DNA from: an uncultured Bacteroidia bacterium
Lineage (GTDB): Bacteria; Bacteroidota; Bacteroidia; Bacteroidales; UBA932
Length of the DNA: 64,000 nt
Reading direction: 5' to 3'
Assembly (NCBI GenBank): GCA_902785825.1
Contig: CACZZZ010000009.1
Coordinates: 1 to 64,000, forward strand
The notes under the pieces were generated by a model. The model ran no database searches. It had not been told where the DNA came from and worked only from the letters and a program-made list of their open reading frames with translations. Shown one piece after another: positions 296-23,786 of this stretch (position 1 is the stretch's first letter; each line of letters begins with the position of its first letter). The position numbers and the translations under genes are program-made.

Positions 296-2653
296 CTATT
301 CATTCTTCAATGATTCCACCGGGTTGGCGCTGGCGATGCGGAGGCAGTTGAGGACGACTACGCCCAACACGATCAACAACACCAGTACGGCCCCGCAGAT
401 AAAATACAGCGGATTCAGCGGAACCTTCTCGGCAAACTGTTCCAGCCACCTGCGGGCCACGAAGAAGGCTCCGACGCAGGCGATGACAGCCATCACGGCG
501 GAGAGTTTCATAATGTCCATAGCGAATATGCCCAGAATGTCTTGAGTCGTGGCGCCATTGATCTTGCGGACAGCCATCTCCTTACTGCGGCGCAGCGATT
601 CGTCCTTGATGAAGCCAATGAGACCCAGCAGCGCGATCAGCAGCGAGAACACTGACCCGAGAGCCATAGTATCGCGCATCTTCTTGCTGTCGTCGTATAA
701 CGCCCGCATCTGCTCCTCGTAAGAGAATATATTGATTTCACGGCCTTCCAGGGCTGATTCAAGGGCTTCCTTTGCCATCCCGAGCGAAGTCGAGGAATCT
801 CTTAATTTGAACAGCACATGCGGCATCCAGGAAGACATGCTCCCTATCTCACCATAGAATAAGGCACTGGGACGCTGGTCCACGCCAGTCAGGTTGCCGA
901 TAATATAACTCTTATATACACCTGAAATAGTGAAATAACGCCGCTGAGAATCACGTGAACGGTCGTGACCGGTGATGAATACCTGCTTGCCGACCGCGCC
1001 ATCGCTCCAGTCCGCAAACTCGGCCATCTTCTTCACAAACTTCTCATCCACAACAATTTCCGAGGAATCACGTGGAGCACGGCCTTCCAGGAAATCAATG
1101 CCCATCAAGTCGTAGAAACCGTCGGAGCATTCGTACTGGTCGGCGATATTGAACAGTTCGCGGTCATCGTCAGGAAGATAGACATTGTCGCCATTGGAGC
1201 CCTGGAAAGGAAGGTTATAGGCAGTCGCGACACCGCTCACTTCCGGCAGGCTCTCCAGAGTGCGGACGGCACGGGTGATGGCCTGCCTGTCGCCATCGAA
1301 AATGCTGATATAGTATAAGTTATCGTAATCGTATCCAGTGTCGGCATGAGAAATCTTTTGGTACTGACGCCCGATGATAAGCATCATCACCACCAGGAAC
1401 ACGTTGATAAGCACCTGTACGCCCAGCAGGCCGAGCTTCCAGTTGCGGGAGTTTTCCGTATAGTTCTTCAGTGCCGCATAGACCGGAATCCGCTGGTATA
1501 GCTCCGCCGGGACGACGATAGAGATGATGAGGACGAATACAAGTACCGCAGTTATGGCAAGGATGCTCTGCGGCACCAGCAGCGTTGTAAACGGTACTCC
1601 CAACAAGTTTTCCACGATGCTTCGGCCGGCGAAAATGATGATGGCGGCAAGGGCCAGCGATAGGAAGATATGAAGAGATGCTTCCTTCGTCAGCATTCCG
1701 TAAATATGCTTGCCCTCAGCTCCATAGCACTTGCGGACACCCACTTCCTTGGAGCGCTTGACCATTGAAGAAATCACAATCAGGATATAGTTGAGCAAGC
1801 TGATCAATATGAGCAGTGCCGCCACAATCGAAAGCAGAACCACCTGCGACTTCACCTCGGGATCGGAAGTGTGCATCTTGCTGAAGGGCTTCAGGAAATA
1901 TCTCAGGCTGGTACCCTGGGCCTCTATCTGCTCCAGAGGCTGGTGCGCCTCCTGCATCTTCCGGATAGCATCGGTCAGCGTGGCTGGATCAACGCCGGGC
2001 ATCAGTTTCACATAACCCTTGTACCGGTCGTTGCCCAACCAGTTATCAGTGCTCTGCTTGCCGTAGGTGTCCATTGAGAGGAGGATGTCGTAGTCCAATG
2101 TGCCATTCTTCGGAAAGTCCTCAAACACGCCTTCGATGGTCAGTTTCAGGTCAGGCATGTCCTCGTTGTAAATTTGCTTGCCGATAACGGTGGAAATGTC
2201 ATCCTGAGCGGAGCGAAGGATCTTTTCCGCGAAGCTCCGGCTCACCATCACGCTGCCCCACTTGCCCAGCGCCTTCACCGGATCACCGGCCAGGATCGGC
2301 CTGTCGAAGACCTGGAAGAAACAGGTATCGGCACAGACGAGCGTGCCTTTCAACTTGTTTCCATCTTCGTCCATATAGGTGTCACCGTTAAAAACGAAAG
2401 TGGTGCGGGTACCGGCCTCGACTCCCGGAACCTCTTCCATAAAGCCCACCGCCACGGCGCCGCTCACCTGGCCAAAATCCTTTTCGTCCCCTAGCCTGGA
2501 TATCCAGGTATTGATGGTATATACCCGGTCGATGTCCTTGTAAAAGCTGTCGTAACTCAGCTCAAAGAATACCTTGGCAATGAGCACAATCCCCACTGCC
2601 AGCCCCATGCCCAGGGACAGTATTTTGATCAAAATGTCGCTTTGTCTTCTCAT
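296..2653 (-). CDS. FtsX/MacB-type ABC transporter permease, 785 aa
   Basis: Inner-membrane permease with the doubled plan of the large Bacteroidota FtsX permeases: helix 1 (about residues 8-30), a periplasmic MacB_PCD-like domain, a three-helix FtsX block (about 265-390), a second periplasmic domain and a final FtsX block ending in NPVESLKNE. The frame is open to 2716 but only with a GTG start. The first in-frame ATG is at 2653 (MRRQSDILIKILSL), and the sigma-54-like element at 2726-2741 would place the transcript start near 2715, so 2653 is chosen. Its N-terminus differs from both other permease types here, so I treat it as a third subtype. Residues 147-152 (RSAQDD) come from a dispersed repeat at 2198-2223. 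It heads a separate leftward unit and has no ATPase of its own in view. Confidence 0.88.
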   Translation of the reverse strand: MRRQSDILIKILSLGMGLAVGIVLIAKVFFELSYDSFYKDIDRVYTINTWISRLGDEKDFGQVSGAVAVGFMEEVPGVEAGTRTTFVFNGDTYMDEDGNKLKGTLVCADTCFFQVFDRPILAGDPVKALGKWGSVMVSRSFAEKILRSAQDDISTVIGKQIYNEDMPDLKLTIEGVFEDFPKNGTLDYDILLSMDTYGKQSTDNWLGNDRYKGYVKLMPGVDPATLTDAIRKMQEAHQPLEQIEAQGTSLRYFLKPFSKMHTSDPEVKSQVVLLSIVAALLILISLLNYILIVISSMVKRSKEVGVRKCYGAEGKHIYGMLTKEASLHIFLSLALAAIIIFAGRSIVENLLGVPFTTLLVPQSILAITAVLVFVLIISIVVPAELYQRIPVYAALKNYTENSRNWKLGLLGVQVLINVFLVVMMLIIGRQYQKISHADTGYDYDNLYYISIFDGDRQAITRAVRTLESLPEVSGVATAYNLPFQGSNGDNVYLPDDDRELFNIADQYECSDGFYDLMGIDFLEGRAPRDSSEIVVDEKFVKKMAEFADWSDGAVGKQVFITGHDRSRDSQRRYFTISGVYKSYIIGNLTGVDQRPSALFYGEIGSMSSWMPHVLFKLRDSSTSLGMAKEALESALEGREINIFSYEEQMRALYDDSKKMRDTMALGSVFSLLIALLGLIGFIKDESLRRSKEMAVRKINGATTQDILGIFAMDIMKLSAVMAVIACVGAFFVARRWLEQFAEKVPLNPLYFICGAVLVLLIVLGVVVLNCLRIASANPVESLKNE
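2198..2223. repeat. Dispersed repeat with core CTGAGCGGAGCGAAGGAT
   Basis: A 26-base copy of a short repeat that recurs at 19973-19999 and 45756-45781, with a partial copy at 49574-49590. Here it lies in frame inside the permease gene and encodes LRSAQDD. Similar sequences (translated as RSAQDD or ILSGAKDL) are familiar as genome-wide repeats in several bacterial groups. The neighbouring permeases have no equivalent insertion. Confidence 0.6.
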
Positions 2654-2725
2654 TTCCTTTACACAATCATATTTCCCCTTATCCGCAACATCCGCTGTGC
2701 CATAATACTTAAACACCTAATTCAC

Positions 2726-2741
2726 AACAACTTCCGCACAA
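2726..2741 (-). promoter_or_regulatory. Candidate sigma-54 (-24/-12) promoter for the 2653 permease
   Basis: The minus strand reads TTGTGCGGAAGTTGTT, an imperfect match to TGGCACG-N4-TTGCW with correct spacing. It shares ten of sixteen positions with the stronger element at 20760-20775. It lies just downstream of the TGTAAAG inverted repeats, as expected for a promoter driven by an NtrC-type activator. The -24 GG is only half conserved, so this is a candidate. Confidence 0.4.
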
Positions 2742-2748
2742 TCCAAAA

Positions 2749-2796
2749 GTGTAAAGGAACTGTAAAGCTTTACACTTTTTGTAAAGTTCTTTACAG
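2749..2796. promoter_or_regulatory. Putative activator binding sites (TGTAAAG inverted repeats)
   Basis: Contains a perfect palindrome TGTAAAGCTTTACA (2761-2774), a perfect inverted repeat TGTAAAG-TT-CTTTACA (2780-2795), and an extra half-site GTGTAAAG just before them. The same motif occurs twice upstream of the TolC operon (20831-20869). No similar cluster was found elsewhere in the window. The likely ligand is the NtrC-type regulator at 21532-22911. Confidence 0.6.
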
Positions 2797-2884: not shown

Positions 2885-3432
2885 ATGTCAAACGAAATGA
2901 TTCTTATTCAAGACCTGATCCACGAAATCCGTGGAAAGAAGGTGATGCTGGACTTCGATCTGGCAAGGTTCTTCGATCTGGCAAGGTTATACCAAGTGGA
3001 GACAAAGGCCTTAAAGCAGGCCGTTCGAAGAAATCTGGACCGATTCCCTGATGACTTCATGTTCACATTGTCCCAAGAGGAGTATAACGCATTGAAACTC
3101 AATATAAGGTCACAATTTGTGACCTTAAACGAATCCTCAATAGGTAAGTATCCAAAATATCCTCCTTTTGCTTTTACAGAACAAGGGGTAGCCATGCTGT
3201 CTTCTGTTTTACGCAGCGAAACAGCCATACAGGCCAACATCGCAATTATGCGAGCCTTCGTCCAAGTACGGGAATATCTTCTGACCGCATCATCGGTTTC
3301 TTCTGAATTAAAGGAATTGCGAGCCAAAGTGGACCTGTTGGCGAGTCGGGAAGACGAAGACAGAGGGAATATCGACACATTGTCCTGGAAGAGCGGAAGA
3401 AAGAGCCAAGGCCCCGTATTGGTTTCAAATAA
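2885..3432 (+). pseudogene. ORF6N-domain protein gene with a C-terminal frameshift
   Basis: The first ~165 codons encode an ORF6N (KilA-N related) DNA-binding domain, seen in phage and mobile-element proteins: IRGKKVMLDFDLA, QAVRRNLDRFPDDFMF and FAFTEQGVAMLSSVL are typical. Two lesions are visible. An 18-base tandem duplication (2953-2988) adds six residues inside the conserved LDFDLA-LYQVETKALK stretch. Near 3383 the frame is shifted: the ATG frame runs on to 3559 with an unrelated tail, whereas the +2 frame from 3385 encodes LEERKKEPRPRIGFK and stops at 3430-3432, which is the usual family ending. The 3559 version would overlap the convergent permease by over 120 bases; the repaired version ends 6 bases before it. 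A sequencing error is possible for the shift, less so for the duplication. Confidence 0.7.
2953..2988. repeat. Perfect 18-bp tandem duplication in the ORF6N gene
   Basis: CTTCGATCTGGCAAGGTT occurs twice head to tail (2953-2970, 2971-2988). It keeps the frame and inserts six residues (DLARFF) into the most conserved part of the ORF6N domain. Confidence 0.9.
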
Positions 3433-3438
3433 AACATA

Positions 3439-5724
3439 TTATTCCTTCTTCAGTTCCGTGGCGGGGTTGGTGCGGGCGGCGCGGAGGGTCTGCCAGAGGA
3501 CGGAGAGCAGGGAGATAACCAGCGTGATAAGAACAGCGACCACAAAGATCCACCAGTAGCCCTCCAGCCTGTAAATGAAATCCTTAAGATATTCCTGGAC
3601 GGCATAGACAGCGATCGGTATGCCGATGAGACAAGCTATGCCGACAAGGATCATATATTCCCGAATACTTCGCCAAGCTTCCGTGTCCACAGTGCCGCCG
3701 AAGACCTTCCGCACCGCTATGTCCCTTGACTTCACACCCGCATAATAAGTGCTCATGGCCAGCAGGCCCAAAAGGGATATGATGATGGAAAGCAACATGA
3801 AGATTTCCATCAGGCGCATGTTGTTGAAGGCTGGTTTCCAGGCTTCGGCGATGGTTTCGTCAATCCAGGAAGGGTAATTCAAATACACCTCACGGTCCTT
3901 GGCGTACGCCTCATAGGTCTCCATGATTTTTGAATATGCCTCCTTCCTATCACCCGTGGTCTCTATCAGATAACTTCCTATCCAAATGTCTTCAGGCCGG
4001 ACAACACAGACAATGGCATGTTCCTCTTCTCCCATATTGGCATTGTTCGTCGGGAAAGCCTTGAATACGCCAGCGAGATTCTCGCACCCGCTCGCGCGCT
4101 GGCTCAGCACACTGATGTCATGATAGTCCTCGTCAAAACCGGTAGCGGCAAAGCTCTCGTCAGAGAACCACACACTGTTGAATATAGGGGCGTTATAATC
4201 CTTAAGTATTTTGAAATCAAACATCTGGAACGCCGTACTGTCCATCCGGTAAAGGCGGTACATTATGTCTTGTCCGTCCCTTGTCTTGCTGTATTGCCCA
4301 CCGGTGCCAATACCCGGCACTCCAGAGCACCGGCCAACACGCTTGACAAAAGGAAGGCGCTCCAGGGCATCTTTCAGTGGAGCCTGGTCTTCCCGGGTGA
4401 TAAAAGAAAGGCTGAACTTGTCTTTCACATCGATATTCATCGGGCGGGTCTTCGTCTTGCGCATCTGGGCCTCCATCGTAATGGCGAGGGCGATCAGGAT
4501 GACAGCCAGCGCATTCTGCAGAACGATGAATACCTTGCTGAAAACCATCTTGCTCTTTCGCCGGTAGTCTCCCTTCATCACTTCCAGTGAATTGTATCTT
4601 CCGGCCATGACCGCCGGGATAATACCGCATATTATTCCTACTACAAGGACGATCCCAACATAGGCACAGATGTAACCCGGCTTCCAGGCCACCTGAATGG
4701 GGACGTCAGGATTGCTAAGCAGCCGGTTCATCAAAGGGCAGAAAGCCTCGGCAATCAGCAGGCCGGCACCGAAACAGGCCGCCGTGAATACGATGGATTC
4801 CGTGATATATTTGCCGACAACCTGGCCTTTAGATGCTCCAGACAACTGCCTCACGGCCATTTCCTTGGCTCTTTTCCCGGTAAGCGCCACGGTGAGGTTG
4901 ACATAATTGAAAATGGCGGAAAGAAGCAGTAGGAGTCCTACCAAAAGAAGGGTCCTGATTGTCTTGAGGTCACCATGTAGGAACAGGTTACCTGTCTCTT
5001 TGAAAAACAGCTCGTCATAACGGGTCAGTTCCAGATGGTCGAAAAATGATTGCCCGTAAATATCTGGATAAACCTTCTTGCAGACCTCCTCCAATTTATC
5101 ATAAAGCGCCTGTCTGTCCGCACCGGGACGAGTTTTGATAAAGCAGATGGTACTGCCGAAATTGTCAAAGGGTTGCCATGCGCCTTTGTAGTTTTCGACG
5201 GGCAGGAAAGCCTCTACGACCTTCATGACCGTTCCCCGGGAATCTTCAAAAATGGCTCCGACAGTATATTCCTTGTCACTCAGTTCCAATCTGTCTCCAA
5301 GAGTCAGATTCAACCTTCTGGCAAACGATTCCGAGACAATGATATTGGACAGGGAAGACAACGCGTCGGCGCTCCCTTCCACGAAACGGTAATTTGGCAA
5401 CAAATCGAAAAACTGGCGGTCAACGGCCGCACCCCACAGGACCTCGTTCTTCCCATAAGTGGGAGCCACCTCACAAAACCTGGAAACAGTCTCTATTTCA
5501 GGAATTTCCGTAATGACATCAGGGAATGCGTACGTAAGCCCCGGACAGCCAGGCATCCCTGGGAGGTAAATATTCTCCCTGTTGGGGTTTTCCCGTGTGA
5601 CGGCGAATTGTTGCCACACGTATGACCCGATGATTATAACGAACGCGAGGCTCACAGCCAGTCCTACGAACTCGATGGCCGTGTACAACTTATTGCGGGA
5701 TAAGAATTTCAGGTAACTATTCAT
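3439..5724 (-). CDS. FtsX/MacB-type ABC transporter permease, 761 aa
   Basis: Last gene of the long leftward operon. The N-terminus MNSYLKFLSRNKLYTAIE and the ending ARTNPATELKKE mark it as the common subtype of this array, shared with 5728, 10443 and 12755. Layout: helix 1 (about 15-37), first periplasmic MacB_PCD-like domain, FtsX helices (about 258-380), second periplasmic domain (about 420-610), final FtsX helices. The KRAKEMAVRQLSG and SRDIAVRKVFGGT stretches are the conserved cytoplasmic loops expected to contact the ATPase. It starts 3 bases after the upstream permease stop. No clear terminator hairpin follows. It presumably uses the LolD-like ATPase encoded at 15124. Confidence 0.88.
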   Translation of the reverse strand: MNSYLKFLSRNKLYTAIEFVGLAVSLAFVIIIGSYVWQQFAVTRENPNRENIYLPGMPGCPGLTYAFPDVITEIPEIETVSRFCEVAPTYGKNEVLWGAAVDRQFFDLLPNYRFVEGSADALSSLSNIIVSESFARRLNLTLGDRLELSDKEYTVGAIFEDSRGTVMKVVEAFLPVENYKGAWQPFDNFGSTICFIKTRPGADRQALYDKLEEVCKKVYPDIYGQSFFDHLELTRYDELFFKETGNLFLHGDLKTIRTLLLVGLLLLLSAIFNYVNLTVALTGKRAKEMAVRQLSGASKGQVVGKYITESIVFTAACFGAGLLIAEAFCPLMNRLLSNPDVPIQVAWKPGYICAYVGIVLVVGIICGIIPAVMAGRYNSLEVMKGDYRRKSKMVFSKVFIVLQNALAVILIALAITMEAQMRKTKTRPMNIDVKDKFSLSFITREDQAPLKDALERLPFVKRVGRCSGVPGIGTGGQYSKTRDGQDIMYRLYRMDSTAFQMFDFKILKDYNAPIFNSVWFSDESFAATGFDEDYHDISVLSQRASGCENLAGVFKAFPTNNANMGEEEHAIVCVVRPEDIWIGSYLIETTGDRKEAYSKIMETYEAYAKDREVYLNYPSWIDETIAEAWKPAFNNMRLMEIFMLLSIIISLLGLLAMSTYYAGVKSRDIAVRKVFGGTVDTEAWRSIREYMILVGIACLIGIPIAVYAVQEYLKDFIYRLEGYWWIFVVAVLITLVISLLSVLWQTLRAARTNPATELKKE

Positions 5725-5727
5725 ATT

Positions 5728-8037
5728 CTACTCTTTTTTGAGTTCCGTGGCGGGGTTGGTGCGGGCGGCCTTGAGGGTCTGCCAGAGGACGGAGAGCAAG
5801 GCTACGGCAGCGGCAAGGATAACGGCAACAGCGAAGACCCAGCCATAGCCGGAAATCCTGTAGGAATATTGCTCCAGAAGCTTGCCCGAGAGCCATACCG
5901 CAAGGGGCACCGCCACGACGGCCGCGATGGCCATCAAGGTAAGATATTCAAGGACAGTCTTTTTGACCTCTCCCTCAACAGTACTTCCGAAGACCTTGCG
6001 GACTGCGATGTCACGAGAGTTCTCGCCGGCATAGTAACCGCTCATGGCGACGAGACCAAGGGCAGAGAGCAATAAGCTCAGAAGCATGAACAGTCTGACA
6101 AGCGACAGCCTGTCCTTCACCTCCGCCAGCGTCTCCGAAATTATCTCGGGAATATACCCGAACATGTAGGGCTTGTCCTCGATCCCGTTCCGCTCGACGC
6201 AAAGATCCCTGTATAAACCATAAAGACTCTTCCGGGCTTCCTTCTTATCCCCCATCGTCTCGATCAGCAGGCCATATTGCTCCTCGGAACGACCTATTCT
6301 CACATAACTACCGGTTCCGGAGTCGTACCTCAGCACATCGTTCGGGGCGAAATCCCCGATGATTCCTCCGATAGAGCGGCCCATGATGTGATGCTGCACG
6401 AGATTCTCCGTGTTCCTGTCCACCCCGAAACGGGTCATCTCCTTCTCCGAGATCCACACCGTACTCACAGCAGGCTCCTCAAACTTCTCCTTGATGTCAA
6501 ACCCGAACATGTCAAATGCCGTGGCGTCGCAATTGAGAACCGCCAAGGTCAGTAGTTTGCCTTCACTGTCCTCGGTGACCATTTCCTCGACCAACCCGGG
6601 GAAATAGGTGCTGTGTCCGATTCTGCTGACGCAGGGCAGGGAGGCCGCCTTTTCCTTGAAAGCCGCCGCAAGTCCCGGATCAGTCAACTGGACATAGAAA
6701 TCATTCTCCACATCGGCGCCAAGCGGACGGTTAACCATGTGTGAGACTTGAAGACTCATTATGATTGCCAGCGCCAGGAGTATTACCGAGAACACATGCT
6801 GCAGGACAATGAAAACCTTGCTGAACACATGCTTATTCTTTGCCCGGAACTCTCCTTTAACAACGGAAATCGCTGGAAATCTGGCGCTTATCCAAGCTGG
6901 AAGGCTTCCCTGAATGAACGAGACGAGAATTATGAATATGGCATATACCGCCAGCCATCCCGGCGAGTACCTGACCCGGACCGGCACGCTGGCACCGATA
7001 ATCCTGTTGAACCACGGCGAAAGCGCCTCTGCGAGAAGGACAGCGAGCAGGAAGCAGATGGTCGTGAACAGGACCGATTCAAGGATCCTGTTGCCGAACA
7101 GGCTCTCTTTTGAAGCTCCCAGCACCCTTCTGGTCGCCATCTCCCTGGCCCGTTTACCGGTCATGGACACGCAAAGATTGATGTAATTGAATATCGCGGA
7201 GACAAGCAGGATGATTGTAATCAGCAGGATAATCCTCGTGTAGAAACGGCTTCCGCTTTTAAGGCTCTGGTTGTTGGCCGGTGAGTACCAGACCTCATCG
7301 TACCTGACTAATCCGCTGTCTTCCAAGAAGTTCCTGGCTCCAAAAGCGTCGAAGGCCTTTGCTGCCAGGGAATCCGCCTTAACCTCGAGCTCCGCCCTGT
7401 CGGTCCCTTTCCTGACTTTCACAAACGGAATCACATCCAGCATGTGCGGCCTGTTTTTCCTGTTGGTAAGGTTCTCGATACTGACTATCACGTCCGGCTC
7501 TCCGAATATCGGATTGGGAGTGTCTTTGATGATAGCGCCAATGGTGTATTTCCCGTCGATAACCTTGCCGATGGCCTCCGACTCGCCTCCGAGCAAGTTG
7601 GCGAAAGACCTGGAAATTATGGCGTTAGAGGCATCGTTCAGGGTTGTCGCGTTCCCCGCCTCGAACTCAGCCGGGAATATATCGAAAAAGTCTCCACCGA
7701 CCATGCACTCCTCGACATGGTATTTAGTTCCGTCAATGTCGATGGTGCTCTCTTCTTCTGTCATCGCTTTCCAGAACATGGCCGCCTTCTCCACTTCAGG
7801 AATATCCTCCTTCGCCTGAAGGGCGGTTCCCCAGGAGAACCCGATGCCGGAACTGCCTCGCATCGACCGGTAGAAGGTATATACATCCTTATAGTCCGGG
7901 ACGTTCCTGGTCATCTGCCTTTGCTGCCACACGAAGTGCCCTGTCAGCAACACAAACGCCAGGCTCACCACAAGACCCACCGCCTCAATGGCCGTGTACA
8001 ACTTGTTCCGGGATAGGAATTTCAGGTAACTTTTCAT
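5728..8037 (-). CDS. FtsX/MacB-type ABC transporter permease, 769 aa
   Basis: Tandem paralogue of the flanking permeases. It begins MKSYLKFLSRNKLYTAIE, has helix 1 at about 15-37, two periplasmic MacB_PCD-like domains, two FtsX membrane blocks (starting near residues 265 and 650), conserved cytoplasmic loops GKRAREMATRRVLGAS and SRDIAVRKVFGS, and ends ARTNPATELKKE. The periplasmic domains differ strongly from those of its neighbours while the ends and loops are conserved. This suggests shared mechanics and ATPase but different periplasmic partners or substrates. It sits 3 bases after the upstream gene and 3 bases before the next, a tight operon. Confidence 0.88.
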   Translation of the reverse strand: MKSYLKFLSRNKLYTAIEAVGLVVSLAFVLLTGHFVWQQRQMTRNVPDYKDVYTFYRSMRGSSGIGFSWGTALQAKEDIPEVEKAAMFWKAMTEEESTIDIDGTKYHVEECMVGGDFFDIFPAEFEAGNATTLNDASNAIISRSFANLLGGESEAIGKVIDGKYTIGAIIKDTPNPIFGEPDVIVSIENLTNRKNRPHMLDVIPFVKVRKGTDRAELEVKADSLAAKAFDAFGARNFLEDSGLVRYDEVWYSPANNQSLKSGSRFYTRIILLITIILLVSAIFNYINLCVSMTGKRAREMATRRVLGASKESLFGNRILESVLFTTICFLLAVLLAEALSPWFNRIIGASVPVRVRYSPGWLAVYAIFIILVSFIQGSLPAWISARFPAISVVKGEFRAKNKHVFSKVFIVLQHVFSVILLALAIIMSLQVSHMVNRPLGADVENDFYVQLTDPGLAAAFKEKAASLPCVSRIGHSTYFPGLVEEMVTEDSEGKLLTLAVLNCDATAFDMFGFDIKEKFEEPAVSTVWISEKEMTRFGVDRNTENLVQHHIMGRSIGGIIGDFAPNDVLRYDSGTGSYVRIGRSEEQYGLLIETMGDKKEARKSLYGLYRDLCVERNGIEDKPYMFGYIPEIISETLAEVKDRLSLVRLFMLLSLLLSALGLVAMSGYYAGENSRDIAVRKVFGSTVEGEVKKTVLEYLTLMAIAAVVAVPLAVWLSGKLLEQYSYRISGYGWVFAVAVILAAAVALLSVLWQTLKAARTNPATELKKE

Positions 8038-8040
8038 ATT

Positions 8041-10425
8041 CTATTCCTTCTTGAGTTCCGTGGCGGGGTTGGTCTGTGAGACTACCAGGGCCATGGACGA
8101 GATGACGGCAACGGTGGTTCCGATGACGATGAGCCAGGCGAGGAAGAATATCCAGGCCGGGACGGGCGCCTTCTCGGAGAACTGCTCCATCCAGCGGCTG
8201 ATTATCCATATTCCCAGAGGAACGGAGACGGCGAACACAACAGTCCCGAAAACAATATACTTCCGAGCCATCATCCAAATCAGGTCTTTGGTGGATGCTC
8301 CCATGACTTTCCGGATCGCGACTTCCTTGCGGATGGTCTGAGCCTCAAGATAAACGAGTCCGAATATTCCCAGAAGCGCGAGCAGCAACGAGAAGATGGA
8401 GGATGTCTTTACCAAGGCGCTCTCCGCGGCGTTCCCGCTATAGAGTTTCCTTGCGGACGAAATGAGAAGGGACACCCTGGCATCCTTTGTCCCTCCTATT
8501 TTGTGCAGGATTCCAGCCAACCTTCCGGCCACTTCTCCTGATTTCCCTTCAACGGTTTTCACTTCAGCCCGGAAATATCTTGGTGTCAGGTCTCCTTTTT
8601 GACTCGGCTCGCCGGAACAATAGAATGCGAAAGGTTCTATCGGGTGTGTCAGGTCTTGATAATTGAAGTCTTTTACGACTCCGACAATCTCCGCATCCGT
8701 ATCAGGACAAGCGACCCTGATTCCTTTCATGTGAGATCCTACCTTGATCTCCGGATAAGCTCTCATGAAAGCCTCATTCACCACATACACCCCTGTTGAG
8801 GCCTCTCCATCTTCTTCAGTGAAGCCTCTCCCTTCCACAATATCGAAACTAAAGAAATCCAGATAGTTAGGACTGACATCAATCCCTGCGAAACGGGCGG
8901 TGACCCCATTGGATTCCCTGGTGTTCAATCTAGGGGATTCCATCAGAATAGACTGGTTGGCAAAAGCGATATCGACAATATCCTTGTCTTTCAGCAATTC
9001 TTCCCTGACCGTCTCTTTTTTGGCCGCGGTTTCAAAACCAAGCCAGCAGTGTGCTATGTCCTTTATCTGGAATCCAAGATCGAAATTCGAGACATAATTG
9101 TTCTGTATTCCTATCATCAGGCCGACTTCGATGAAAAGGAATGAGAGCAGGAATTGAAGGGCCAAGGTTCCTGTCCTGAACTCCTTGCCCTTCCCTGACA
9201 GGCTGATCCTTCCTTTCAGTACAGAGGAAGGGGAGAAGGAGTTGCCATAGCGGGATGGCAGGTACGTGACAAGAAGCGATCCGGCCAATGCCACCAGGAG
9301 GCAACAAATGAGTACCGGACGAAGCGTTCCGATCCTAAGGGGAACAGTGAGGAATGATGCCAGAGGTGAGTTGGACACGAATATGGTGATGATAAGCGCT
9401 ACTCCAAAAGACAGCAGGCAGAGGATGGCGGCTTTCATCAGGTCTTTTCCCAGAATCTGGGAGTTGTCAGCCCCGAAGATCTTCCGGACGCTGTTGCCCT
9501 GTATGCGGAACGGGAGCTCGGCATTAGTAAGATTAAGGACGTTAAGCAGGCCGACAAGAAGGAATATAAGTGCGATGGCTGTCAGTATGAAGTCCCGGCT
9601 ACGGCTTCCAGCACCGTTTAAGAATGGGTCGTAATGCACTGAATGCAAGGTGACAAGCCTTGAATCATTCAGGACTCGTTCCCTTATGTCCGAAGGAGTG
9701 TCCTGGTCTTCCCACAGGACCCAGTTCCTTTCGAATGCCTTTGCCAGGACGGGGGCAATCTTCTTAGGATCCGCTCCTTTGCGGAGCTTGACAAAAGCCT
9801 CGAAAGACTCATAGTTCGGGTCATTGTTCCCGGCATACAGGTCGCCAAGCTGCCCGAATGCTCCGATTCCCGCAATGAGCGAGTTGACCGGGAAATCCTT
9901 GAACACACCTATGACGGTAACTTCCTGGATCCCGCCCCTTTCCAATTTCAGATGCTTTCCTATAGCCTGGCCACTTCCTCCGAATAAGGTCTTGGCCGAG
10001 GTTTCTGACAGCAAAAGGGATTCAGGGTTGTCAAAACCGTTTACCGTTCCCGCCACCATGCGGAAAGGGAAAACATTCACGAAATCATTATCAACCAATG
10101 CCGCCACAGGGAACTCCATCGGGGTGTCATTGTTGGGATCGACCAGCATAGATTCGCTCATAGTCCCTACTGCCTCCACTTCCGGAGAAGCATCCCTGAT
10201 CGCCTGGATCTGGGGCCTGTTCATGAGAATCTGGTAAGGCGCCTGATCCCTTGTACGGCTCTGAGGCCTTTCGAAAAAATAAATCCGCCCGCTTCCAGGG
10301 TATGATCTGTCGAATGTGACATCGTACCACACCTGACTCATCAGCACGATGAACACAGTGAAAGAAATGACCAGACCTACCGCCTCGACCAATGTGTTCA
10401 GTTTGTTCCGTGATAATAATTTCAT
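8041..10425 (-). CDS. FtsX/MacB-type ABC transporter permease, 794 aa, mosaic of two subtypes
   Basis: The first ~21 residues (LLSRNKLNTLVEAVGLVIS) resemble the LSRNKLYTAIEAVGL start of the common subtype. The following IVLMSQVWYDVTFDRSY matches the other subtype (15784-18096 has ILMSQVWWDYRYDRF). The body keeps that second type, with loops RIQGNSVRKIFGAD and RKEVAIRKVMGAS. The last residues, QTNPATELKKE, and about 22 bases of DNA at 8053-8074 return to the common subtype. So both ends look as if copied from neighbouring genes. Otherwise it has the usual two periplasmic domains and two FtsX blocks. It is co-transcribed, 17 bases after the upstream gene stop and 3 bases before the next gene. 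Confidence 0.87.
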   Translation of the reverse strand: MKLLSRNKLNTLVEAVGLVISFTVFIVLMSQVWYDVTFDRSYPGSGRIYFFERPQSRTRDQAPYQILMNRPQIQAIRDASPEVEAVGTMSESMLVDPNNDTPMEFPVAALVDNDFVNVFPFRMVAGTVNGFDNPESLLLSETSAKTLFGGSGQAIGKHLKLERGGIQEVTVIGVFKDFPVNSLIAGIGAFGQLGDLYAGNNDPNYESFEAFVKLRKGADPKKIAPVLAKAFERNWVLWEDQDTPSDIRERVLNDSRLVTLHSVHYDPFLNGAGSRSRDFILTAIALIFLLVGLLNVLNLTNAELPFRIQGNSVRKIFGADNSQILGKDLMKAAILCLLSFGVALIITIFVSNSPLASFLTVPLRIGTLRPVLICCLLVALAGSLLVTYLPSRYGNSFSPSSVLKGRISLSGKGKEFRTGTLALQFLLSFLFIEVGLMIGIQNNYVSNFDLGFQIKDIAHCWLGFETAAKKETVREELLKDKDIVDIAFANQSILMESPRLNTRESNGVTARFAGIDVSPNYLDFFSFDIVEGRGFTEEDGEASTGVYVVNEAFMRAYPEIKVGSHMKGIRVACPDTDAEIVGVVKDFNYQDLTHPIEPFAFYCSGEPSQKGDLTPRYFRAEVKTVEGKSGEVAGRLAGILHKIGGTKDARVSLLISSARKLYSGNAAESALVKTSSIFSLLLALLGIFGLVYLEAQTIRKEVAIRKVMGASTKDLIWMMARKYIVFGTVVFAVSVPLGIWIISRWMEQFSEKAPVPAWIFFLAWLIVIGTTVAVISSMALVVSQTNPATELKKE

Positions 10426-10442
10426 AATTCGTTAGTTTAAAA

Positions 10443-12752
10443 TTACTCCTTCTTCAGTTCCGTGGCGGGGTTGGTGCGGGCGGCCCGGAGGGTCTGCCAG
10501 AGGACGGCGAGGAACGAGATCACCAGGGCGATCACGGCACCGACCACGAACACCCAGCCGTAGCCATCAATCCTGTAGTAGAACTGCCTTAAGTAACGCT
10601 CGGAGAGGAATATCGCGACCGGGACCCCGATAAGGATAGCCACTCCGACAAGGATCAGGTATTCAGAGACTGACCTGCGGGTCTCGGAGGCGATCGTTCC
10701 GCCAAAGACCTTGCGCACGGCGATGTCCTTTGTCTGCATCCCGGCATAGTAGGCGCTCATGGCCACCAGTCCGAGGAGCGAGATCAGAGCCGCGAGCAGC
10801 ATGAATAACTCTATCATGCTGATGAAGTTCCGCGTCTTCTCCAAGGTCTTTTCGATGAGTTCAGGAATATATCCGTAAACCTTCTCGCCAATATCCTCAT
10901 CTCCTTCGATCCTAAGGCCCTCCTGGCGAGCGATCTCCCTTAGTTCTGCCCTGATGTCCCGATCGAGCCGGTTAAGCTCAAGCACAACATCAGTCCCATT
11001 TATCCTCTCACTGACATAGACCATACCCACCTGGTTACCAGCGATTTCCGAAGGGCCTTTAAGGGCAAAATCCTTGATTATTCCGGCGATTTCCATCTCA
11101 CCCCAGATCACGTTGACAAAGTCGGGCGCAACAGGGTTATCCTCGTCAAAAGAGAACACATTCGCCGCGGTTTCGGTAAGCCATAAACCATTCTTTTGAG
11201 GAAGGTTGAAGTCCTTCAAAACCTCAAACCCGAACATCTCGAAAGCGGCCTCGTCACAACGAAGCAGTCTGACATCCACTTTCTTCCCCTCAAGGGTTGT
11301 GCTAACGCTCACATTACCGTTACCTGGGTATCCTTGGGTCCGGCCAATCCTGTCCACGTAAGGTTTGGCAGCCAAAGCGTCCATTCCCACGGTACCGCTG
11401 GACAGGTAATATAGATTATCCACGTTAGCCCCTATAGGCATATTCACAAGATGGGTGTATTGCAACTCCATCACGAGAGCCATGGAGATTAACGCCACCG
11501 TTATGACATTCTGGATGACTATGAATATTTTCGAGAACACCGATTTTGTCTGGCGCCTTTGCTCTCCCTTTATGATGGAGACCGGATCGTGCTTCAGTGT
11601 CATCCATGCCGGAATAAGTCCGGAGATCAGTCCGATCAGAACAGCCAGCAAGGAGTAAACGGCAAGATACCAAGGCGAGAACGCCACTTTGAGCCCGATG
11701 TCTCCGGCCAAGTACTTGTTGAATGTGGGTTCCATGGCTTTGGCCAGAATCATGGCGAGGGCGAGACAAACGGCCACGAACAGGATAGCTTCGGAAACAA
11801 ATCTCCATAAAATACTCCTTTTGGACTCTCCGAGGGTCGAGCGGATGGCCATCTCCTTAGCCCTTTTTCCAGCGAGGGCAACACTTAGGTTGATGTAGTT
11901 GAACAGGGCCGAGGCCAGAAGGAGGATCCCGACGGCGATCAGCACATAGACAAGCGTCGGATTGCCTTTTTTCAGCGAATCGCCAATGCGTTTCGAGAAA
12001 TACAACTCCTTAAAAGGAACTGCCAAACTGTGCTCAGGTTTATTGATACTGTAATAGGATTCAGCGAATTCCTTATGGAACATAGTGTCTATAACAGGCC
12101 CGAGTGTTTGTAAATCAGAACCTTCCCTAAAACGGACAAGAATAAGGTCATACGGAGTGACAAACGGGGAAGTGCTGGGGGCGTCTTTTTCTTCGAAGCC
12201 TCGATAGACGTCCCTTTCCTTTAAGATTGAGTTCTCAGAGATTTTGACGATACCTCCTATCACGCAGGTATCTTTAAGTAGTATGATGGTCTTACCGACC
12301 GGATCCATGTCCGGAGACAGTTTCCGCGCGAAATTTTCCCCAAGAATGACTTGGCTCCTGTCTTTCAGAACCTCTACCGATCCCGAAATGAACTCCTGGG
12401 GCAGGAACTCGAAGATCTCCGGATCCACATTAGAGATGTCCAGAAAGCCCGGGATCTTCTTCCCATTATAAGTGACATAAGTGCCATAGTTACTTATCCT
12501 ACCTCCCTTCTCAAACTCTGGAATCCTGTCATGGACCATCGACAGCTGCCCGGGATAAGCGGAAAGGTACTCATCTCCCGCCCCTGTCAGCGCGCAAATC
12601 CTCTCATAGTCAGGAGCTTCCTTCGTGATCGCGAATTGCTGCCATGTGTAGCAGGCGATAATAACCACGAAGGCGAGGCTCACTATGAGCCCCACCGCTT
12701 CGATGGCCGTGTACAACTTGTTCCGTGACAAGAATTTCAGGTAACTTCTCAT
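10443..12752 (-). CDS. FtsX/MacB-type ABC transporter permease, 769 aa
   Basis: Common-subtype permease of the array, beginning MRSYLKFLSRNKLYTAIE and ending ARTNPATELKKE. Helix 1 spans about 15-37. The first periplasmic domain runs to about 265 and is followed by three FtsX helices with the loop GKRAKEMAIRSTLGESK. A second periplasmic domain lies at about 430-640, and the closing FtsX block contains TKDIAVRKVFGGT. It starts 2 bases after the upstream permease stop. The gene's 5' and 3' DNA is nearly identical to that of 3439, 5728 and 12755, so the array probably grew by duplication. Confidence 0.88.
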   Translation of the reverse strand: MRSYLKFLSRNKLYTAIEAVGLIVSLAFVVIIACYTWQQFAITKEAPDYERICALTGAGDEYLSAYPGQLSMVHDRIPEFEKGGRISNYGTYVTYNGKKIPGFLDISNVDPEIFEFLPQEFISGSVEVLKDRSQVILGENFARKLSPDMDPVGKTIILLKDTCVIGGIVKISENSILKERDVYRGFEEKDAPSTSPFVTPYDLILVRFREGSDLQTLGPVIDTMFHKEFAESYYSINKPEHSLAVPFKELYFSKRIGDSLKKGNPTLVYVLIAVGILLLASALFNYINLSVALAGKRAKEMAIRSTLGESKRSILWRFVSEAILFVAVCLALAMILAKAMEPTFNKYLAGDIGLKVAFSPWYLAVYSLLAVLIGLISGLIPAWMTLKHDPVSIIKGEQRRQTKSVFSKIFIVIQNVITVALISMALVMELQYTHLVNMPIGANVDNLYYLSSGTVGMDALAAKPYVDRIGRTQGYPGNGNVSVSTTLEGKKVDVRLLRCDEAAFEMFGFEVLKDFNLPQKNGLWLTETAANVFSFDEDNPVAPDFVNVIWGEMEIAGIIKDFALKGPSEIAGNQVGMVYVSERINGTDVVLELNRLDRDIRAELREIARQEGLRIEGDEDIGEKVYGYIPELIEKTLEKTRNFISMIELFMLLAALISLLGLVAMSAYYAGMQTKDIAVRKVFGGTIASETRRSVSEYLILVGVAILIGVPVAIFLSERYLRQFYYRIDGYGWVFVVGAVIALVISFLAVLWQTLRAARTNPATELKKE

Positions 12753-12754
12753 AT

Positions 12755-15124
12755 TTATTCTTTTTTCAGTTCCGTGGCCGGGTTGGTCCGGGCGGCTTTG
12801 AGGGTCTGCCAGAGGACGGTCGCGAACGCGATGGCCAGCGAGATGATACCGGCAACTATGAACACCCAGCCGTAACCCTCAATCCGGTAGGCGAACCGCT
12901 CCAGATAAAGCCTTGAGGCCCAGATGGCCAGTGGAATGCCGATAATGCAAGCCACTCCCACCAGCACCATGTAGCTTCGGACCGTCCGCCAGGTCTCGTT
13001 GGAGACATTGCTGCCAAAGACCTTCCGCACCGCGATCTGCTTTGTGTTCTCATCCGCGAAGTAGGTGCTCATGGCCAGCAGGCCAAGCAGGGAGATCAAT
13101 ACCGCCAGCACGGCAAAGAGTTCCACAAGGCGCAAGGTCCTCCGTACAGGGATCAGCTGCTTACGATTGATGTCTTTGATGAAGCCGTACCGCCAGGCAG
13201 ACTGTTCCACACCCAAAGTCTCCAAACGGAATTCCTTGTAGGCCTGAAGGATTTGGTCTTCATAAGATTTGTCCTCCCCAGTGGTCCCTATTAGAAGACA
13301 ATTGGAATATTGTAGTTCTTCCACACGGGTCACGATGACACCACCATTGGGATTGATCTCACCTTCTGAGGCGGGGCGGGTGGGAAAGTCCGTCACTACT
13401 CCTCCGATGAACTCCGGCTGGGCACCGTTCATGTTGATCTTCCGGGGGAATACAGTTGAGGTGTCGGAGACTCCGGCCCCGTTGAAGGCTGAACGGCTCA
13501 TCCACAGCGAATGCGTCAGAGGGTGACCGAAATCCTCCTCCACTTCCAACCCCAGCAGTTTGAAGTAGGTGGAGTCGCACAGGATGACGGGCATACTAAC
13601 TCTATGCTCCTCGTCAACCTTGACACCCACCGTCATATTGATCATTCCTGGTATTCCTCTTCCTACTCCAGCTTTGGTCACAAAGGGCAGCCTCTCCACC
13701 TTGTCCTTGAAAAGCTTCATCTGATCGTAGTTCTGGGCGGAATATTCGATGTAGTAGAGGTTCTCCGTGGCGGAGTGCATAGGCCGCGAAAGCATGTGAC
13801 TCATCTGCGTTTCCATCACCAGGGCCAGCGCGATCAGAAATACTGAAAGCACGTTCTGCACCACGATGAATACTTTACTCAGTACCATCTTGTTCCGACG
13901 CCGGAGAGTGCCCCTGATCACGTCTATGGGCTGGTAACGTGAGGCCGCGAAAGCGGGAAGCAGGCCGTTGATGACACCCAGGACCAGGATTCCTGCCAGA
14001 TATGCCAGGATATACCCCGGCGTGAGCATGAATGAAAGCCGCACGCTGGTGTCGGTTCCCATCAACATGTCGTCCGGATCACGGGTGGAGACCAGACTGT
14101 TCACCATTGGTTCAAACAGATCCGCAAGGAGCATGGCTGCGGCGAAACAGATGGCTGTGAAGACCACGGATTCACTGATGTATTTCCAGAGAATACCGGA
14201 TTTGTCCGCTCCTAAAAGCCGCCTGGTGGCCATTTCCTTGGCCCTTTTGCCTGTGAGAGCCAGGCTGAGGTTGACATAGTTGAATATGGCGGAGAGCAGG
14301 AGCAACAACACCACGACGGTCAGCAACCGCAGCATCTGGGCGTTTCCCGAGCGGATGAGTCCGTCGCTGGCGCCAGGGAAGAAAAAGGCTTCGTCCATGC
14401 GGTAAGCTTTCCACTTATCCACCTTTTCGGCCTGCCAGATGGAGTCATAGTTCTTATGCAGGAGGGCCTTCACCTTGGACCGCATGGCATCAAGGTCCGC
14501 ATCCTTTCTCACAAGGAACCATGTGGCGTAATTGCCGATGCTGTTAAATGCCTTTGACTGCTCAGCCGCCCATGTGGCGGAGATATTCGTGATGATGTCC
14601 ATGGGCATGAAGAAGGTCTCGTCAAAGTCGGCGAAGATGCCTTTGATCATGCGATCAGCGTCATCGATCTTTAGAGTTTGGCCGACTTGCTTGCCAATCT
14701 TCCTGGACAGAGACTCACTGATGAGAATATCATCCTTCCCAACAAAGTCCTCCAGGCTTCCTTCCACAAGATGATATTCCGGGAACACCTTGAAGAAGTC
14801 GGCGTCGGCCTCCATGCCGGAGGCGTGAATCGCCTCTTCCCCATTATAGATGGCCGGCTCCCACAAAAACGCGATGTGCGTCGCCGCCTCCACTTCCGGA
14901 ATATTCATCTGCAGTTCTTCCTTGTCCCAATAGGTCAGGCCCAGGAACTCGTCATTTCCCAGCACGAAAGTGCGTTTCCACTCGGGAGACTCATGCGCCA
15001 CTTTGTAGTGCTGCACCACGTAGGAGCCGATCAAGATCACGAACGCCAGGCTGACGGCCAGCCCCACCGCCTCCACAGCGGTGTATAACTTATTGCGACT
15101 TAGGAATTTCAGGAAACTTTTCAT
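12755..15124 (-). CDS. FtsX/MacB-type ABC transporter permease, 789 aa
   Basis: First permease after the ATPase gene. Its ATG overlaps the ATPase stop by one base (TAATG on the coding strand), which implies translational coupling. Start MKSFLKFLSRNKLYTAVE, helix 1 about 15-37, two periplasmic MacB_PCD-like domains, FtsX blocks starting near 265 and 665, loops GKRAKEMATRRLLGAD and TKQIAVRKVFGSN, ending ARTNPATELKKE. The coupling makes this the permease most likely to be matched in amount with the ATPase. Confidence 0.88.
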   Translation of the reverse strand: MKSFLKFLSRNKLYTAVEAVGLAVSLAFVILIGSYVVQHYKVAHESPEWKRTFVLGNDEFLGLTYWDKEELQMNIPEVEAATHIAFLWEPAIYNGEEAIHASGMEADADFFKVFPEYHLVEGSLEDFVGKDDILISESLSRKIGKQVGQTLKIDDADRMIKGIFADFDETFFMPMDIITNISATWAAEQSKAFNSIGNYATWFLVRKDADLDAMRSKVKALLHKNYDSIWQAEKVDKWKAYRMDEAFFFPGASDGLIRSGNAQMLRLLTVVVLLLLLSAIFNYVNLSLALTGKRAKEMATRRLLGADKSGILWKYISESVVFTAICFAAAMLLADLFEPMVNSLVSTRDPDDMLMGTDTSVRLSFMLTPGYILAYLAGILVLGVINGLLPAFAASRYQPIDVIRGTLRRRNKMVLSKVFIVVQNVLSVFLIALALVMETQMSHMLSRPMHSATENLYYIEYSAQNYDQMKLFKDKVERLPFVTKAGVGRGIPGMINMTVGVKVDEEHRVSMPVILCDSTYFKLLGLEVEEDFGHPLTHSLWMSRSAFNGAGVSDTSTVFPRKINMNGAQPEFIGGVVTDFPTRPASEGEINPNGGVIVTRVEELQYSNCLLIGTTGEDKSYEDQILQAYKEFRLETLGVEQSAWRYGFIKDINRKQLIPVRRTLRLVELFAVLAVLISLLGLLAMSTYFADENTKQIAVRKVFGSNVSNETWRTVRSYMVLVGVACIIGIPLAIWASRLYLERFAYRIEGYGWVFIVAGIISLAIAFATVLWQTLKAARTNPATELKKE

Positions 15125-19362: not shown

Positions 19363-19363
19363 A

Positions 19364-20722: not shown

Positions 20723-20759
20723 ATCCTAATTTTACATTTACACTTTCGCTCCAAAAGAA

Positions 20760-20775: not shown

Positions 20776-20821
20776 TTGAAGCTAAAATGTTGTTTATCAA
20801 TAATTTCCGGAAATATGACGA

Positions 20822-20870
20822 GTGTAAAAAGTGTAAAGGACTTTACACTTTTCTGTAAAGTCCTTTACAC
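20822..20870. promoter_or_regulatory. Putative upstream activator sites of the TolC operon
   Basis: Two perfect inverted repeats, GTGTAAAGGACTTTACAC (20831-20848) and TGTAAAG-TC-CTTTACA (20854-20869), plus an extra half-site at 20822-20828. Site centres are about 22 bases apart, close to two helical turns, suiting cooperative binding of a dimeric activator. The motif matches the cluster at 2749-2796. Confidence 0.65.
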
Positions 20871-21501: not shown

Positions 21502-21509
21502 TAACTTTG
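21502..21509 (+). promoter_or_regulatory. -7 box of the response regulator gene
   Basis: TAACTTTG, an exact match to TAnnTTTG, lies 23 bases before the ATG at 21532. It lies back to back with the minus-strand box at 21481. The regulator thus seems to use a housekeeping promoter, not the sigma-54 type it is predicted to activate. Confidence 0.4.
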
Positions 21510-21531: not shown

Positions 21532-22911
21532 ATGATGAAAAAGAGCGGTAAAATACTTGTCGTGGACGACAACCTGGGGATCAGACAGGCACTTAAAATA
21601 TTGCTGCCCATGTGTTTCGATGCGGTGGAGACAATAGCTTCGCCAGCGACCCTGGTCTCAACCTTGGAGAGTTTCAGGCCGGATGTGGTGCTTCTTGACA
21701 TGAATTTCAACACCAGCATAAACACCGGCAATGAGGGGCTTTACTGGGCAGGAGAGATAAAGAAAATGGCCCCGGATGTGGAGGTTGTGCTGTTCACCGC
21801 CTACGCCGACATCCAGCTGGCAGTCGAGGGAATGAAACGGGGCGCTTTCGACTTCATCGTCAAGCCCTGGGACAACGACAAGTTGGTGGCGACTTTGACA
21901 GCTGCCCGGGATAAGGCCCGGAAGGCTATGGGGAGGGATGCCCGATCGGGGTCGGGCATGACGGAAGGCTCGACCGGGAACGTCATTGCCGGCTCGACCG
22001 GCAATCCCATGTTCTGGGGTACAAGCCCCGCCATGAAGGCCATCCGCAAGACCCTGGACAAGATCGCTCCCACCGACGCCACGGTCCTGATCACCGGAGA
22101 GAACGGCACAGGAAAAGACGTTCTGGCAAGGGAGATCCACGCCCACAGCCTCCGTAGCGATAGACAGATGGTTGCGGTGGACGCAGGCGCCATCACAGAG
22201 ACTCTCTTCGAGAGCGAGCTGTTCGGCCACGTGAAAGGCGCTTTCACGGACGCCCACACTGATCATGTCGGCAAATTCGAGCAGGCAGATGGCGGTACGC
22301 TCTTCCTTGACGAGATCGGGAATATTCCTTTACACCTTCAAGCGAAACTCCTGAGGGTGATCCAAAACCGCAGCGTCATCCGTGTGGGTGGCTCTGAGGC
22401 AAGGCCTGTGAATATCCGTCTGATCTGCGCCACGAACATGGACCTGGAGGCGTTGGTGCGGGAAGGCAGGTTCCGGGAGGACCTGTATTACCGGATCAAC
22501 ACTGTCCATATTGCCCTCCCTCCCCTGAGGGAACGCCCGGAAGACATCATCCCCTTGGCGGAAAGGTTCATCAGCGAGTTCGCCAAGAAATATCACCGCC
22601 AGCTTACCGGACTGGACAGCGGCGCCGCCGAGATTCTTAAGGCCCAGCGATGGAGCGGGAATATCCGGGAGCTCCAGAACGTGATCGAGAAGGCTGTCAT
22701 CCTGAGTGAGGCGAGGACTCTGACGGCCAATGACATACAGATAGATGGGGCAAGTCATTCCAGCCTTGGTCGGGAATTCCTTGCCGAAGATGAGGAACGC
22801 TTGGTCCGGCAGGCCATGGATCGTACAGGAGGCAACATCTCCGCCGCCGCCAAAATGCTTGGTGTGAGCCGGCCTACCTTTTACGCGAAACTGAAGAAAT
22901 ACGGCCTCTGA
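21532..22911 (+). CDS. NtrC-type sigma-54-dependent response regulator, 459 aa
   Basis: Receiver domain (about 7-125) with the acidic pair D12-D13, phospho-acceptor Asp56 (VVLLDMN), Thr89 and Lys111 (DFIVKPW). The AAA+ domain (about 160-400) has Walker A GENGTGKD (189-196) and Walker B GGTLFLDE. In the sigma-54 contact loop, GAFTGA is GAFTDA (236-241), a form I recall as common in Bacteroidota. A Fis-type helix-turn-helix closes the protein (about 424-459, GGNISAAAKMLGVSRPTFYAKL). Residues about 136-158, between receiver and AAA+ domain, are encoded by two palindromic repeats (21938-22005) and look like an in-frame insertion. Start: the first of two adjacent ATGs. The kinase gene overlaps its stop by one base (TGATG). 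The paired inverted repeats upstream of both permease units are its likely targets. Confidence 0.93.
   Translation: MMKKSGKILVVDDNLGIRQALKILLPMCFDAVETIASPATLVSTLESFRPDVVLLDMNFNTSINTGNEGLYWAGEIKKMAPDVEVVLFTAYADIQLAVEGMKRGAFDFIVKPWDNDKLVATLTAARDKARKAMGRDARSGSGMTEGSTGNVIAGSTGNPMFWGTSPAMKAIRKTLDKIAPTDATVLITGENGTGKDVLAREIHAHSLRSDRQMVAVDAGAITETLFESELFGHVKGAFTDAHTDHVGKFEQADGGTLFLDEIGNIPLHLQAKLLRVIQNRSVIRVGGSEARPVNIRLICATNMDLEALVREGRFREDLYYRINTVHIALPPLRERPEDIIPLAERFISEFAKKYHRQLTGLDSGAAEILKAQRWSGNIRELQNVIEKAVILSEARTLTANDIQIDGASHSSLGREFLAEDEERLVRQAMDRTGGNISAAAKMLGVSRPTFYAKLKKYGL
21938..22005. repeat. Two palindromic repeat units inside the regulator gene
   Basis: ATGCCCGA-6nt-TCGGGCAT (21938-21959) and ATTGCCGG-CTCGA-CCGGCAAT (21985-22005) are perfect inverted repeats, with the related string CTCGACCGGGAA between them. 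They are in frame and encode a Gly/Ser-rich linker including two GSTGN units. They resemble REP-like mobile palindromes more than normal coding sequence. Confidence 0.65.
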
Positions 22912-23786
22912 TGTCCACTTGGCAAATCATAATCCTCTGCGTCATCGTCGCCACTGTAGCAGCGGTGATAGCGATAATACGAACCCGCCAGAGGACGATC
23001 CGGAAAGTGGCGTACATGATGGACGCGCTGGAGGACGGCGAACTGAACTTCCGGTTCAAGGATTCCAATAAGCTCAACCGTACCCTAAACCGAATAAGGA
23101 CTATTTTCGAGCGCCAGCGTCAGCAGCACGAGCAGGATTCCTGGACAAAACTCATCAGGGTCCTCACGCATGAGATCATGAACACGGTTTCCCCTATCTC
23201 CTCGTTGAGTGATGCCCTGGCCAAGTCAGTTGACGAGAACGGCCACAGCGACCTTGACATCAAGGCGGGACTGGAGACGATCTCGGATTCCTCCAAGAAC
23301 CTTATCGGTTTTGTGCAGACCTACCGGGAACTCTCCGGAGTGGCAAAGCCAATCAGGAAGGCGTTGGATCTCAGGGAGTTAATTGAGAGTGTCATCAGTC
23401 TGAACAGTGAATATACAGCCTCCCTCGGAGCCGTTTGCCAGTACAAGCTGGAAGAGGAGGATCTGATGATTTACGCTGACGAGGGTCAGATCTCCCAAAT
23501 ATTGATCAATCTCATAAAGAACGCCCTGCAAGCCGGTGCGAAGCATATCGACATCTCCGCCAGGATGGGCGATGAGGACGATGTGATCATCGATGTGGCC
23601 AACGACGGAGATCCTATCCCTGTCAGCGGGCAGGAGCAGATATTCATACCGTTCTACACCACAAAGAAAGAAGGTTCGGGAATAGGCCTGAGCATCTCCC
23701 GCCAGATCATGCGCAACCATAACGGCACTATCGAGCTGACTCGCAGCGATGACAGTCAAACCGTCTTCGAGTTGCGGTTCTGCTAG
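22911..23786 (+). CDS. Short membrane-bound sensor histidine kinase, 291 aa
   Basis: One N-terminal membrane helix (about 4-23), a short juxtamembrane segment (RKVAYMMDALEDGELNFRF), an H-box with His87 (LTHEIMNTVSPI), an N-box (INLIKNAL, about 199-206) and a G2 box (GSGIGL, 255-260). The G1 box reads NDGDP. There is no periplasmic sensor loop. The usual PAS-like domain between the NRTLNRIR segment and the SWTKLIRVLTHE segment, as I recall it from related Bacteroides kinases of about 430 residues, is absent. It is translationally coupled to the regulator. With so little sensor left, it may read membrane state or a partner protein such as the permeases. Confidence 0.9.
   Translation: MSTWQIIILCVIVATVAAVIAIIRTRQRTIRKVAYMMDALEDGELNFRFKDSNKLNRTLNRIRTIFERQRQQHEQDSWTKLIRVLTHEIMNTVSPISSLSDALAKSVDENGHSDLDIKAGLETISDSSKNLIGFVQTYRELSGVAKPIRKALDLRELIESVISLNSEYTASLGAVCQYKLEEEDLMIYADEGQISQILINLIKNALQAGAKHIDISARMGDEDDVIIDVANDGDPIPVSGQEQIFIPFYTTKKEGSGIGLSISRQIMRNHNGTIELTRSDDSQTVFELRFC

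Follow-up and report, generated by a model that had tools for sequence, protein, structure and literature searches.

A predicted sigma-54 regulon of FtsX-family permease units with paired TGTAAAG palindromes and an NtrC-type candidate regulator in a rumen-type Bacteroidales genome

Several described systems resemble parts of the locus analysed here. In the orp operons of Desulfovibrio vulgaris, upstream activator sites (UAS), an IHF site and the -24/-12 element occur in the same order as in the present promoters, the IHF sites being predicted at about -42/-43 (PMC3897727). A matrix-based survey from 2025 described an enrichment of sigma-54 promoters before FtsX-like ABC antimicrobial-peptide-type permeases (COG0577) in Bacteroidia (PMC12316311), i.e. 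the same target gene class in the same phylum, predicted from promoter matrices; in the passages considered here, no activator, binding motif, IHF-like element or regulator autoregulation is named. Concerning a sigma-54 activator of efflux genes in Bacteroidetes, this survey was the only directly relevant report found in the open-access literature, and no description of the regulator, the motif, the fixed IHF-like element or the operators at regulator promoters was found there. The TGTAAAG system is a new predicted sigma-54/NtrC-type regulon; a link of sigma-54 to FtsX-family permeases in Bacteroidia had already been reported computationally (PMC12316311). Additionally, the domain order receiver-AAA+-HTH_8 of the regulator is common to AtoC, ZraR and PEP-CTERM PrsR, and the adaptor, ATPase and permeases encoded at the locus give hits to the models of the darobactin exporter DarBCD (NCBIfam NF038007, NF038008, NF038010)/MacAB-TolC.

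In contrast to the orp-type sigma-54/NtrC/IHF promoters, the promoters presented here have a different activator motif, RTGY at the -12 position and an exact 7-bp spacing of the IHF-like element that is kept across species; the candidate activator carries a GAFTDA loop, and one small DNABII protein was found instead of IHF alpha/beta. The same loop and scores below the equivalog cut-offs (best 411.9 vs 502.6) set the regulator apart from AtoC, ZraR and PrsR. An assignment as darobactin-type exporter was rejected, the scores (205.7/450, 239.6/375 and 56.4/700) being far below the curated cut-offs; unlike DarBCD/MacAB-TolC, the system has many permeases per ATPase.

The window, i.e. the whole analysed stretch of 64,000 nucleotides, originates from a rumen-type Bacteroidales genome of 2,692,885 bp that is 98% complete. 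The promoter of the permease gene 296-2653 is referred to as P1 and that of the TolC operon starting at 20722 as P2. The genes concerned are:

296..2653, minus strand: permease with MacB_PCD and FtsX domains (Pfam), 785 aa, driven by P1, far side near the contig end
3439..20722, minus strand: P2 operon as a whole (Pfam, NCBIfam)
19364-20722, minus strand: TolC-like OEP, P2 operon
18106-19410, minus strand: HlyD/DarC-like adaptor, P2 operon
15784-18096, minus strand: permease, P2 operon
15124-15759, minus strand: ABC ATPase, P2 operon
3439-15124, minus strand: five further MacB_PCD/FtsX permeases, P2 operon
21532..22911, plus strand: NtrC-type response regulator with receiver, AAA+ domain with GAFTDA loop, and HTH_8 (Fis) (Pfam)
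22911..23786, plus strand: partner histidine kinase, 291 aa, HATPase_c, one N-terminal hydrophobic segment

According to Pfam, six MacB_PCD/FtsX permeases are thus encoded in the P2 operon and a seventh under P1, and both promoters precede paralogous permease-type units. Between the two units an ORF6N-domain gene (2885-3559, plus strand) is located divergently from P1; its overlap with the 3′ end of the gene for the last P2-operon permease (3439-5724) amounts to about 120 bp. A 188-aa protein without Pfam or NCBIfam match is encoded at 20898-21464 (minus strand), its gene ending some 30 bp short of the P2 activator sites; in L043-L045, the three closest loci, the identity is about 88-92%.

The control elements recognised at the two promoters and upstream of the regulator gene are:

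2687..2702, minus strand: P1 -24/-12 element TGGCACAGCGGATGTT
2710..2722, minus strand: P1 IHF-like element AATTAGGTGTTTA, 8/9 specified positions, 7 bp upstream of the -24 box
2750..2795, minus strand: P1 UAS, two palindromes and an extra half-site, unique in the genome
20760..20775, minus strand: P2 -24/-12 element TGGCACGGAAAATGTC
20783..20795, minus strand: P2 IHF-like element AAACAACATTTTA, 8/9, 7 bp upstream of the -24 box
20832..20869, minus strand: P2 UAS, 20854-20869 and 20832-20847, both N2
21502..21509, plus strand: TAACTTTG, Bacteroidetes -7-type box upstream of the regulator gene

Two perfect TGTAAAG/CTTTACA repeats common to both promoters had been claimed in the first-pass annotation, and this was confirmed: the window contains four perfect palindromes of the form TGTAAAG-N0-2-CTTTACA, two per promoter, at 2761-2774 (N0), 2780-2795 (N2), 20832-20847 (N2) and 20854-20869 (N2), while 0.00 are expected in the window from dinucleotide shuffling. 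Scattering of the motif across the genome, which would have spoken against a small regulon, was not observed, since a scan of all 2,692,885 bp returned these four sites only, all at P1 or P2, and the reversed-pattern control gave 0 matches. At P1 a fifth half-site, CTTTACA, is located at 2750-2756. Relative to the -24 box the half-sites lie at -93/-84/-72/-65/-54 in P1 and, with nearly the same spacing, at -94/-85/-72/-63 in P2, so that at both promoters a -24/-12 element is preceded by paired palindromes at a distance of about 63-94 bp. The sites had been described as lying just upstream of this element; its presence holds for both promoters, but the actual distance is 54-94 bp. Further TGTAAA-type half-sites occur on the minus strand between the -12 box and the start codon (2657-2663 at P1, about 20724-20745 at P2), and such half-sites are present in this region in several relatives as well.

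Both promoters read TGGCAC-N6-TG; the -12 box is non-canonical, with ATGT in place of TTGC. For a wider view, an alignment anchored at the -24 box was made of 44 non-redundant promoters (identity below 80% over 180 bp). These had been picked by a loose TGG[CT][AC][CTA]-N6-7-TG pattern together with nearby half-sites, so that selection contributes in part to the -24 core and the TG, but not to the block between the half-sites and the -24 box. The conserved order is half-sites, W-A-T-C-A-R-N4-T-T-R and TGGCACR-N4-R-TG-Y-T; the column information is high at the UAS, the IHF-like block and the -24/-12 element and near zero between them. The -24 consensus TGGCACR was recovered (TGG in 44/44, C in 42/44, A in 44/44 and C in 40/44), in part as a result of the selection. 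The -12 consensus TTGCW was not, as all 44 promoters have a purine at the first conserved T; the spacing of the TG is normal, and the next-to-last position is C or T in 40 of 44, giving R-TG-Y-T overall. A single copy of the sigma-54 gene rpoN is present in the genome. Canonical sigma-54 boxes TGGCACGATTTTTGC of related genera run directly into long (AG)n or (AC)n dinucleotide repeats, where transcription presumably starts (L174-L179, L181, L217, L218, L220-L222, L230-L233, L235, L240-L243). This layout occurs in many copies per genome and possibly represents slippage-variable sigma-54 promoters.

An IHF-type element WATCARNNNNTTR was found upstream of the -24 box, separated from it by exactly 7 bp; the first-pass annotation contained neither this element nor the RTGY -12 box, the GAFTDA loop or the operators at the regulator promoters of relatives. 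The middle block of the Bacteroidales promoters equals the E. coli IHF consensus WATCARxxxxTTR (PMC3897727), which is written WATCAANNNNTTR in PMC5963220. At this one fixed offset the element is perfect in 28 and matches at least 8/9 positions in 37 of the 44 promoters, neither P1 nor P2 being among the perfect ones (8/9 each). The mean score is 8.43/9 compared with 2-5 at other and neighbouring offsets, and in composition-shuffled spacers a score of 9 is reached in about 0.14 of 44. The combined IHF-sigma-54 pattern gave 51 matches in 300 family genomes and none in the control; those examined were mostly TolC promoters, and among the rest is a second class that lacks TGTAAAG sites. The idea that sigma-54 promoters of the family carry the element in general was rejected: among 29 canonical TGGCACGATTNTTGC promoters, chosen without regard to the upstream sequence, only two have it at this place, and it is thus mainly a property of the TGTAAAG regulon. 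The genome encodes one 93-aa DNABII (HU/IHF-family) protein, a candidate for bending the IHF-like element, and one longer HU-domain protein.

The regulator encoded at 21532-22911 has a receiver domain (PF00072), an AAA+ sigma-54 interaction domain (PF00158, E=9.4e-69) with the Walker A/B motifs GENGTGKD and GTLFLDE, and a Fis-type HTH (PF02954). Its loop reads GAFTDA, not GAFTGA, a G-to-D variant present in about 89/92 family members at a minimum identity of 72%, and the HTH helix SRPTLYAKxKKY is near-invariant among motif-bearing species. The domain search of the kinase 22911-23786 gave no recognised sensor domain, and the signal may, as a speculation, reach it via the transporter or the membrane. 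Of the three strong sigma-54 activator genes in the genome, two encode a DNA-binding domain. An activator without such a domain, with receiver, AAA+ and a GSFTSA loop, is encoded on contig C3 of the same genome (L194, 8622-9779). Because the second DNA-binding activator has a different recognition helix, and because the motif co-occurs with orthologues of the regulator, the best candidate for binding the TGTAAAG palindromes is the protein 21532-22911.

This co-occurrence was assessed in 100 family genomes: the exact motif is present in 13 of 14 genomes with a close regulator orthologue (at least 65% identity) and in 5 of the 86 others (Fisher p=1.6e-11, uncorrected for phylogeny). Genomes with the exact motif and without close orthologue were G045, G053, G055 and G081, the copy in G055 sitting inside a coding gene. 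Moreover, eighty loci with regulators 72-83% identical, from uncultured, mostly rumen, Bacteroidales, were compared. The TolC-adaptor-permease-ATPase genes usually follow or flank the regulator-kinase pair. In most relatives the motif and the sigma-54 box are located ahead of TolC, even where TolC lies kilobases from the kinase with unrelated genes between (L053, L074, L077, L099, L106). Separate permease/ABC units carry the palindromes together with -24/-12 (L132-L134, L185, L263, L281, L244) or without a -24/-12 element detected by the search pattern (L274, L257, L285-L288). Nearly all examined sites in relatives precede TolC operons, permease/ABC units or the regulator gene.

At the regulator gene the arrangement is a different one. 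Among 35 non-redundant regulator upstream regions the exact palindrome is present in 18, every one of the N3 type. Across all fetched loci, 17 of 46 non-redundant N3 palindromes overlap a TAnnTTTG box, which is the -7 consensus of sigma-ABfr (PMC7366714), compared with 0 of 39 palindromes of the N0-N2 type. The placement of N3 operators over the TAnnTTTG box of the regulator suggests autoregulation in relatives; in some of these regulator promoters a sigma-54-like box, TGGAACGGAATTTGAC or AGGCACAGGGGTTGCA, additionally follows downstream. For the window genome autoregulation was rejected, as no TGTAAAG operator is found upstream of 21532 or over TAACTTTG.

From the sequence anatomy of the promoters, their uniqueness in the genome, their conservation and their co-occurrence with the regulator, we infer, with a probability of about 0.86, that P1 and P2 form a regulon of the two-component pair 21532-22911/22911-23786 and are co-activated via the sigma-54 polymerase, in support of the small regulon under the adjacent NtrC-type regulator that had been proposed from the window. 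Since the control region precedes the same genes across many related species, the regulator very probably switches both units on. The most likely mechanism is classical sigma-54 activation, in which the phosphorylated regulator would oligomerise on the paired TGTAAAG-N-CTTTACA sites, which lie 54-94 bp ahead of the -24 box, the DNA would be bent by a DNABII (HU/IHF-family) protein at the WATCARNNNNTTR-like element 7 bp upstream of this box, and the AAA+ domain of the regulator would thereby reach the sigma-54 polymerase at TGGCAC-N6-TGY and open it. The TolC-adaptor-ABC-permease operon and the separate permease 296-2653 would consequently be co-induced, and a toxic or envelope-active compound may be exported.

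Other explanations were weighed against this reading. The repressor-like placement of the N3 palindromes of relatives, overlapping TAnnTTTG before the regulator gene, would fit a regulator that binds its sites as the repressor operator of a sigma-ABfr promoter, with an incidental -24/-12 resemblance; this is highly improbable for P1 and P2, because the sites at permease promoters are located 54-94 bp upstream of a strongly conserved TGGCAC-N6-TG and show no TAnnTTTG overlap, and the regulator has a full sigma-54 AAA+ domain. It is also very unlikely that a DNA-binding protein other than the adjacent regulator recognises the palindromes. Such a protein would account for the four genomes with the exact motif and without close orthologue, but the strong co-occurrence of motif and regulator, the operators at the regulator's own promoter in relatives and the near-invariant HTH helix in motif-bearing species argue for the regulator itself. 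Finally, recent duplication alone, without regulatory meaning, as the origin of the likeness of P1 and P2 is barely credible: both indeed precede paralogous units, yet they differ in most bases between the elements with the element positions kept, and the conservation of the same elements across diverged species with unconserved spacers contradicts it.

Co-activation by the sigma-54 regulator may be part of a matched variant system, an extension that is put forward tentatively and with the odds against it. Near-invariant GAFTDA activators would here be paired with RTGY -12 promoters that depend on IHF-type bending at a fixed distance of 7 bp, and in relatives the same regulator would also shut off its own TAnnTTTG housekeeping promoter while activating the sigma-54 one.

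The results provide evidence for an IHF-type element in sigma-54 promoters of Bacteroidales and a natural promoter set in which the -12 box and the variant of the GAFTGA loop can be studied jointly. The activator sites, bend site, promoter and regulator gene constitute a predicted regulatory code for an uncharacterised efflux module that is widespread among uncultured Bacteroidales of the gut and rumen. With this code, regulons can be predicted from the sequence, and the compound that induces the genes can be sought in reporter assays.
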